Source: Microcaldota archaeon
GTDB lineage: Archaea > Micrarchaeota > Micrarchaeia > Micrarchaeales > CABMGC01
Assembly: GCA_021817125.1 (NCBI GenBank)
Contig: JAKAWC010000005.1
Location: 1-46,676, forward strand
Length of the DNA: 46,676 nt
Direction of reading: 5' to 3'
A program made the position numbers and the translations under genes. Numbering within the stretch: the first letter of the stretch is position 1; each line of letters starts with the position of its first letter. Below the pieces are notes generated by a model. It made no database searches, was not told the origin of the DNA, and saw only the letters and a list, made by a program, of their open reading frames with translations. Positions 35,599 to 38,532 of this stretch are shown here, one piece after another.

Positions 35599-35618
35599 CC
35601 CACGGCTAAAGCCGTGGG
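35599..35618 (-). ncRNA. Right-end hairpin / likely 3' scaffold of an omega (re)RNA
   Basis: CCCACGGC-TAAA-GCCGTGGG; the tnpB stop codon (35606-35608) falls partly in the loop; element end GGATGTCAC follows. Confidence 0.6.
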
Positions 35619-36877
35619 CTTCCCCCTGAGATTATCTCAGGAGTATGTTCTCGGTTCGGCGACTCGACTTGCGGTCCCCGTTGGGCCGTAGAGGTCGTGT
35701 CTCCCCGAGCGTGACTTCCCGCATGCCCTGCGGTAGTTGCCCTATGCAATATGTTTATCGATGCGTTCATGTCCCTGTCCAACCGCAGGCCGCATCTGCC
35801 GCAGTCGTATTCTCTCATGGATAGCGGCGTGTTCTGGATGTTGCCGCAGCCGCTGCATGTCTTTGAGGTATTTCGCGGGTCTACCTTTATTACCTTCATA
35901 CCAGCGCTTTCAGCCTTGTATGAGAGCATCTGCACAAACCTGCTCCATGAAGCGTTCTGTATTGAACCTGCCAACCTATGATTTTTCATCATATTTTGTA
36001 TATGGAGGTTCTCCACTGCAAATGAGGTATATCCCGAATTGACGAGCATGTCTGAGAGTTTATGCAGGTAGTCGTTCGACCGGTTGTTTACACGCTCCCA
36101 TTCCCTTTGCAGCTTTAGTTTTGCCGTTTCCCTCCTTCTGGATCCCTTCTTTCTCCGCGAGATTATCCGCTGCCAGCGCGCAAGCGTTTTCCTCCTTTCT
36201 TGCATGAACTTCGGCTTCTCTGCCCTCTTCCCATCGGACATCGCGATGAACGAGTTCAGGCCAACGTCAATCCCAACAGGCCTTGTATTCTCTACTGAAG
36301 ATGCCGCACTCTCTTTCATTGCCGTAAATATCGCATAGTATCTCCCAGCCTCTCTTTTTATCGCCATTGTCTTTACCTTCCCCTCCATCGTCCTGTGCAT
36401 ATCTATCTTCATCGTTCCTATCCTTGCGACACGCAGTCTGCTGAATCCCTTTATGCGTTCTATCTGAAAAGAACCGTTGTCCTGAGGGTATGCCAGCGAA
36501 GCGTACGTGTCCTTCGACTTGAATCTCGGAAATCCTGCCCTGGTCCTTTTTCCGTTCTTCTTTGCATTGATCCTGCGGAAGAAGTTCTGGAACGCCTTCT
36601 GAAGCCTTATGAAGACGTCCTGCCGCGTCTGCGAATAGAGCAGGAGGAAGTATTTATTCTCGTTTATCGCTTCCCTCATGAACCCGTTCAGCGTAGACCT
36701 GTTTATCTTCGAGTTCCTGTTCTTTCCGTACTCCCCTCTTGACTTTTCCAGTATTTTGTTATATAGCCGCTGCGCAAGAATCAGCCTCCTGTCTATCTCC
36801 TCCCGCCTTTTGGCGTCAGGATGTATCCTAAATCTGTACGCCCTTGCGGACTCCATGCATCTTGTATCGAACTTCAC
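35606..36877 (-). CDS. tnpB: TnpB RNA-guided nuclease (IS605 OrfB family)
   Basis: RuvC residues in GIDVGLNSFI, AVENLHIQNM, LDRDMNASINI; zinc finger CSGCGN...CGRCG. Confidence 0.95.
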   Translation of the reverse strand: MKFDTRCMESARAYRFRIHPDAKRREEIDRRLILAQRLYNKILEKSRGEYGKNRNSKINRSTLNGFMREAINENKYFLLLYSQTRQDVFIRLQKAFQNFFRRINAKKNGKRTRAGFPRFKSKDTYASLAYPQDNGSFQIERIKGFSRLRVARIGTMKIDMHRTMEGKVKTMAIKREAGRYYAIFTAMKESAASSVENTRPVGIDVGLNSFIAMSDGKRAEKPKFMQERRKTLARWQRIISRRKKGSRRRETAKLKLQREWERVNNRSNDYLHKLSDMLVNSGYTSFAVENLHIQNMMKNHRLAGSIQNASWSRFVQMLSYKAESAGMKVIKVDPRNTSKTCSGCGNIQNTPLSMREYDCGRCGLRLDRDMNASINILHRATTAGHAGSHARGDTTSTAQRGPQVESPNREHTPEIISGGSPRL

Positions 36878-38237: not shown

Positions 38238-38245
38238 TTTATATA
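38238..38245 (+). promoter_or_regulatory. TATA box of the histone gene
   Basis: TTTATATA, about 25 nt upstream of position 38268, followed by palindrome CCCTTAAGGG (38246-38255). Confidence 0.55.
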
Positions 38246-38265
38246 CCCTTAAGGGATGAGTATAT

Positions 38266-38316
38266 CAGTGATGAGATCTTTTCTGATGCTAGTGATGAGG
38301 ATCTTGAGTACTGATT
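38266..38316 (+). ncRNA. Candidate C/D-box sRNA-like element in the histone 5' leader
   Basis: C GTGATGA (38268-38274), D' CTGA (38283-38286), C' GTGATGA (38292-38298), D CTGA (38311-38314); C'-D spacer exactly 12 nt, D'-C' spacer 5 nt. Confidence 0.4.
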
Positions 38317-38319
38317 GAA

Positions 38320-38532
38320 ATGGCGAGCATATCCAAGCAGGCAATCAAAAAGTTGGTCAGGCAGCACTTCAAGGCAACCATAACCGACGACGGCGCTGCG
38401 GAGCTCGCACGCATCCTGGAGAACGAGGCAGCGAAGATATCCCGGTTCGCTGTCGGGAATGCGAAGAAGGCAAATCGCGCAAAGGTGACGCGTGACGACG
38501 TTCGGACATACAAGATAAAGAAGAACACCTGA
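38320..38532 (+). CDS. Archaeal histone
   Basis: Histone fold: ISKQAIKKLVRQHFKATITDDGAAELARILENEAAKISRFAVGNAKKANRAKVTRDDVRTYKIKK. Confidence 0.9.
   Translation: MASISKQAIKKLVRQHFKATITDDGAAELARILENEAAKISRFAVGNAKKANRAKVTRDDVRTYKIKKNT

Follow-up and report, generated by a model that had tools for sequence, protein, structure and literature searches.

The 5′ leader of the main histone gene in this Micrarchaeota genome is in all likelihood a C/D box guide RNA for C34 of tRNA-Leu, which would be cotranscribed with the histone. Judged from its boxes, their conservation, and its complementarity to tRNA-Leu(CAA), the leader element is a tRNA-targeting C/D box sRNA; it is neither a chance repeat nor solely a protein-binding leader. 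The element lies in a stretch of 46,676 nucleotides, which was analyzed as a whole and is referred to below as the window. A C/D box sRNA filling the histone leader was the first of three readings in the original prediction made on this DNA, and it is supported by the conserved boxes and the tRNA target. Re-reading of the sequence showed that the order C–D′–C′–D, the box sequences, and their coordinates had been given correctly (Table 1), and the spacer of 12 nt between C′ and D was confirmed.

Table 1. Features of the histone leader and the adjoining gene. Positions are those of the window.
Feature	Position	Strand	Basis or remark
TATA box TTTATATA	38238..38245	+	First base 30 nt ahead of the C box
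Predicted C/D box guide sRNA occupying the 5′ leader of the histone gene (approximate ends)	38265..38318	+	Conservation; sub-threshold C/D snoRNA matches
C box GTGATGA	38268..38274	+	TGATGA the same in all 56 leaders
D′ side spacer, 8 nt, unlikely to be a working guide	38275..38282	+	Variable in length and sequence
D′ box CTGA	38283..38286	+	CTGA in 54/56 leaders
D′–C′ loop, 5 nt	38287..38291	+	3–7 nt in the family; mostly 8–11 nt in the sister family
C′ box GTGATGA	38292..38298	+	Box comparison across 56 leaders
D guide GGATCTTGAGTA, 12-nt C′–D spacer	38299..38310	+	Pairing with own tRNA-Leu(CAA); core conserved
D box CTGA	38311..38314	+	Invariant in 56 leaders
Main archaeal histone, 70 aa, probably on a common transcript with the sRNA	38320..38532	+	Profile matches to histone structures

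Boxes of the type expected for a C/D sRNA (RTGATGA for C and C′, CTGA for D′ and D) were present in the proper order. Scanning of both strands of the window for the pattern C-N6..14-D′-N2..12-C′-N9..14-D gave this one match, while 100 Markov-shuffled windows gave none; the expected number is about 1e-5. At the gathering score, Rfam reported no C/D family over the leader, and its only match in the window was a tRNA. Below the gathering score, all matches over the leader belonged to C/D snoRNA families, including the best one, sR5 (E = 9e-4; 23.2 bits versus a gathering score of 40), and snoPyro_CD (E = 5e-3). The copies of the guide from Thermococcus, Nitrosopumilus, and Micrarchaeum also gave no Rfam match at the gathering score. 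The leader element would represent an RNA gene overlooked by the Rfam gathering thresholds.

The C′–D spacer has the length of about 12 nt typical of a guide, and its core is invariant. The C–D′ spacer, in which a second guide of about 12 nt would be expected, comprises only 8 nt here and 8–13 nt in the family, and a terminal stem is lacking (contiguous flank pairing of 0–1 bp in 27/33 leaders of the family). Both the short spacer and the weak stem had been pointed out in the original prediction and are typical of the relatives. A terminal stem is no strict requirement for a C/D sRNA. The named contigs without a histone were left out of the terminal-stem comparison, as their C box was called unreliably. 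The short C–D′ spacer was not taken as excluding a C/D sRNA, since tRNA-targeting representatives usually possess one guide without a target (PMC7994747).

The strongest evidence that the element is real is its conservation, which was examined in 60 genomes, including the one under study, from two families of one Micrarchaeota order. Histone orthologues were found in a search of these genomes, mostly with 43–65% identity within the family, and all orthologue leaders read carried the same C, D′, C′, and D boxes. The C′–guide–D pattern, searched with a tolerance of two mismatches, was detected in 56/60 genomes and 42/44 genera, and in all 56 genomes it was located at the main histone gene; conservation of the boxes upstream of histone orthologues, proposed earlier as a check, was thereby borne out. 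The match was single in each genome, except for one extra two-mismatch match in G034. Two genomes without the pattern (G012 and G035) gave no histone match either, and two others (G020 and G027) gave only a weak, paralogue-like one. The element was absent from secondary histone genes at all nine matches read.

The 12-nt D guide was nearly invariant (GATCTTGAGT); the presence of a 12-nt C′–D spacer in all 56 leaders follows from the construction of the search pattern. The guide core GATCTT-AGT was invariant at 9 of its 10 positions, and the tenth position was the same in 54/56 leaders. Within the family, pairwise identity of this 10-nt core was 99% versus 30–35% for the C–D′ spacer. The D′ side therefore probably contains no working guide and serves as filler. 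In the sister family, the longer D′–C′ loop usually opens with GC, and a matching GC often closes it.

The D guide forms 10 Watson–Crick pairs and one G–U pair with the anticodon arm of the own tRNA-Leu(CAA), which was located at G000:C14:784-883; it pairs with ACTCAAGATC, that is nucleotides 31–40. The guide was compared with the 23S locus and with 49 tRNAs predicted in the genome. As a result of this comparison, also proposed earlier, tRNA-Leu(CAA) was the best match by a clear margin. The 23S locus yielded only weaker, wobble-rich matches, and 23S rRNA was rejected as a target. G38306, the fifth base ahead of the D box, faces C34, so that the D+5 rule places the mark on this wobble base, a plausible site of 2′-O-methylation. 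The tRNA-Leu(UAA), which in L164 reads ACTTAAGATC, pairs with the same guide with one G–U at U34. The complementarity suggests that the leader RNA very probably directs a mark onto the tRNA-Leu anticodon. In Pyrococcus, C/D sRNAs have been reported for the first anticodon base (34) of both tRNA-Leu(CAA) and tRNA-Leu(UAA) (PMC7994747). These sRNAs and the rule of one idle guide both agree with the leader element.

The tRNA-Leu anticodon pattern TNAAGA was found in 57/60 genomes, each with at least one copy containing ACTCAAGA. Since the target arm is invariant, covariation could not be used as a test. The tRNA-Leu pattern with an uninterrupted T arm overlooks the own tRNA-Leu(CAA) because of a T-arm insertion. 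This tRNA (L203, G000:C14:760-900) has a T arm that is apparently interrupted by a short insertion (TTCAAAAAGAAATTGAACAAATC), which may be a non-canonical intron, and is not detected by ARAGORN. One genus departs from the common guide: the leaders L020 and L023 (genomes G032 and G008, respectively) possess GATCTTTAGT in place of GATCTTGAGT. This puts U instead of G at the base facing C34, a mismatch, while tRNA-Leu(CAA) is unchanged; no second guide copy was found in these two genomes. Methylation may have been lost here with a cis role retained, or the modification may be reached by another route.

The gene for fibrillarin was not found in the own assembly, which is 85% complete. It was present in 59/60 genomes, including the nearest relative, the own genome being the sole exception. 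Within the family, this gene is located about 3–5 kb from tRNA-Leu(CAA) (G001, G002, G003, G008, G024, G031, and others), and the own tRNA-Leu(CAA) is located on a contig of 5.7 kb, which ends 0.8 kb away from it. Accordingly, the missing fibrillarin is probably due to an assembly or contig gap.

The protein encoded behind the leader gave, when compared alone with PF00808, an E-value of only 0.03. A profile of 13 histone sequences matched the structures of HmvA, HPhA, and HMfA with E-values of 1.8e-9 to 2.6e-6. Elsewhere in the window (35606–36877, minus strand), an IS605 OrfB/TnpB-like protein of 423 aa is encoded (PF01385, PF07282).

The original prediction took the TATA box to place the transcription start near the C box. 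The spacing of 30 nt is similar in most relatives: 25–33 nt from the first TATA base to the C box in 28/33 family leaders, and 27–32 nt in 21/23 leaders of the sister family. Given the usual archaeal spacing between TATA box and start site, transcription would begin at or just ahead of the C box. TATA-like scores of 7–8 of 8 were obtained ahead of the C box in 24/30 loci, while 1/30 loci reached a score of at least 7 where a TATA box for the histone ATG would be expected; a separate histone promoter within the sRNA was rejected on these low scores. The distance from the end of the D box to the histone start is 4–5 nt in at least 21/30 family loci. Since the D box ends near the ATG and the histone has no good TATA box of its own, both RNAs are very likely made as a single transcript from a common promoter.

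Four loci of the sister family (L274, L283, L292, and L293) have no ATG, GTG, or TTG after the sRNA in the histone frame. The histone apparently starts in these loci at the ATG of the C′ box (MMILSAE.. or MMILST..), within the sRNA, and the guide would double as coding sequence. As a general feature, N-terminal extension of the histone from the C′ ATG was rejected: this ATG is in frame in about 40% of loci, and about one third is expected by chance.

We infer the following sequence of events, from the start of transcription through RNP assembly and tRNA methylation to processing and histone output. Transcription would begin at the position set by the TATA box and continue into the histone gene. 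The C/D and C′/D′ boxes would recruit L7Ae, Nop5, and fibrillarin; binding of L7Ae is expected alongside guiding. The D guide would then base-pair with tRNA-Leu(CAA), and fibrillarin would methylate the ribose of C34; via its one G–U pair, the guide may also reach U34 of tRNA-Leu(UAA). Trimming around the assembled RNP would free the guide, and the histone mRNA molecule would be destroyed or left leaderless.

The same guide is widespread in archaea, including Thermococcus, Nitrosopumilus, Thermoplasmata, Heimdallarchaeota, Bathyarchaeota, and others. Among 119 guide-bearing contigs, a histone gene was located directly behind the guide in 31, and the other 88 were not scored as histone-linked. 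A gene in L114, cut off at 31 codons, begins like a histone and was perhaps missed among the 31. Where titles were listed, the histone-linked contigs belonged to Micrarchaeota and, in one case, to Marsarchaeota. No histone was found downstream of the guide in the Thermococcus contigs. Other Micrarchaeota families also carry the guide, in some cases in tandem; in the few named contigs read from them (L044, L058, L061, L072, L098, and L102), it occurred without an adjoining histone. As far as sampled, the sequences indicate that the guide RNA is old and that its fusion to the histone is specific to one order, because the guide is widespread in archaea away from histones.

Several other arrangements of this guide were observed. 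In one other Micrarchaeota family (G141, G109, G112, G292, and others), 2–4 guide–D segments are arranged in tandem, about 45–140 nt apart. In Nitrosopumilus-type genomes, the same guide sRNA is located about 10–20 nt upstream of a UPF0047 gene (L035, L036, L040, L060, L063, L076, L080, and L097). In the Micrarchaeota contig L098, the C′–guide–D half ends 5 nt ahead of the ATG from which an exonuclease III-like protein (PF03372) is encoded; the C/D′ half is not clearly defined.

Of the readings other than a guide RNA, chance direct repeats were named in the original prediction. The half-units are indeed alike in the own genome (AGTGATGAG, ATCTT, and CTGAT), but the shuffled windows and the architecture kept in 56 leaders exclude this reading, whose probability is negligible. 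Control of the histone by translational coupling to a regulatory uORF, which would extend from the ATG at 38271 to the TGA at 38318 (MRSFLMLVMRILSTD), is scarcely credible. This ORF is present in the own genome and ends one base ahead of the histone ATG. In the other leaders, however, ORFs from the C-box ATG differ in length, frame, and end, and only the boxes and the guide are conserved; the uORF was rejected for this reason. It is also improbable, though less so, that the leader acts chiefly as a cis-regulator, with L7Ae (alone or with Nop5 and fibrillarin) repressing histone translation on the C/D k-turn as in Sulfolobus l7ae, and guiding being secondary or lost. Archaeal L7Ae is known to exert control via k-turns located in the leaders of mRNAs (PMC5539422). 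The element keeps a fixed position relative to the start codon of the histone, and one genus retains all boxes despite the guide mismatch at the target base. A pure k-turn leader, however, needs neither an invariant 10-nt guide matching tRNA-Leu nor an identical guide at unrelated sites in other archaea. The earlier suggestion that the leader binds protein and does not guide is unlikely to hold, since no part of the leader is better conserved than the 10-nt guide core.

If the leader is a working guide RNA, the histone may merely be located behind it on a shared promoter, without regulatory consequence for either. This alternative accepts the main claim and differs from a regulatory fusion solely in the consequence; we give it about an even chance. 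Archaeal C/D sRNAs commonly exploit transcripts of neighboring genes (PMC7994747; PMC5539422), and the same guide precedes other genes as well, namely those for UPF0047 and the exonuclease III-like protein. A neutral linkage would, however, be expected to break occasionally over two families and about 42 genera, and no break was seen. Moreover, 5′ overlap has been reported to lower expression of the downstream gene (PMC7994747) and would be counter-selected unless tolerated or useful. The guide has stayed on the main histone gene through the order, and therefore the overlap either has no such cost here or brings a benefit through the coupling. A regulatory role of the fusion is a tentative proposal: each nascent transcript may yield either a tRNA-Leu guide RNP or histone translation, which would tie the histone supply to free L7Ae, Nop5, and fibrillarin, and release of the RNP may set the 5′ end of a leaderless mRNA. 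In that event, methylation of a tRNA wobble base would be linked to the dosage of a chromatin protein.

The Pyrococcus C/D sRNAs (PMC7994747) resemble the leader element in their target tRNAs, the wobble position, and the C/D architecture. The latter differs from them in its location in a histone leader, its short and variable D′ side, and the lack of a terminal stem. Maturation of C/D sRNAs proceeds by trimming around the assembled RNP and requires no special flanking signals (PMC7994747), and their genomic contexts are reported to be variable. Overlap with the 5′ end of an ORF occurs in 7% of C/D sRNA genes of six model organisms and is called rare and expression-lowering (Tripp et al., 2017, as summarized in PMC7994747). 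In the cases described there, as in the histone leader, the sRNA is located at the start codon of the following gene or overlaps it, with start codons in the guide or just past the D box; the histone leader differs from these cases in that one guide–gene pairing is fixed order-wide, with its own TATA box ahead. The k-turn leader of Sulfolobus l7ae (PMC5539422) resembles our element in that the leader of an mRNA contains C/D-like motifs that form a k-turn. The Sulfolobus motif is a regulatory k-turn, whereas the histone leader, as known from its sequence, contains a complete C–D′–C′–D RNA with a conserved tRNA guide. The literature searched contained no description of an order-wide guide–histone fusion and nothing usable on Micrarchaeota C/D sRNAs or Micrarchaeum transcriptomes. 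Both components are thus of known kinds, and the stable order-wide fusion to the histone is, with respect to the literature searched, the new part. It offers a concrete example, accessible to testing, of a single transcript that would be both a tRNA-modification guide and the mRNA of a chromatin protein in archaea with reduced genomes.
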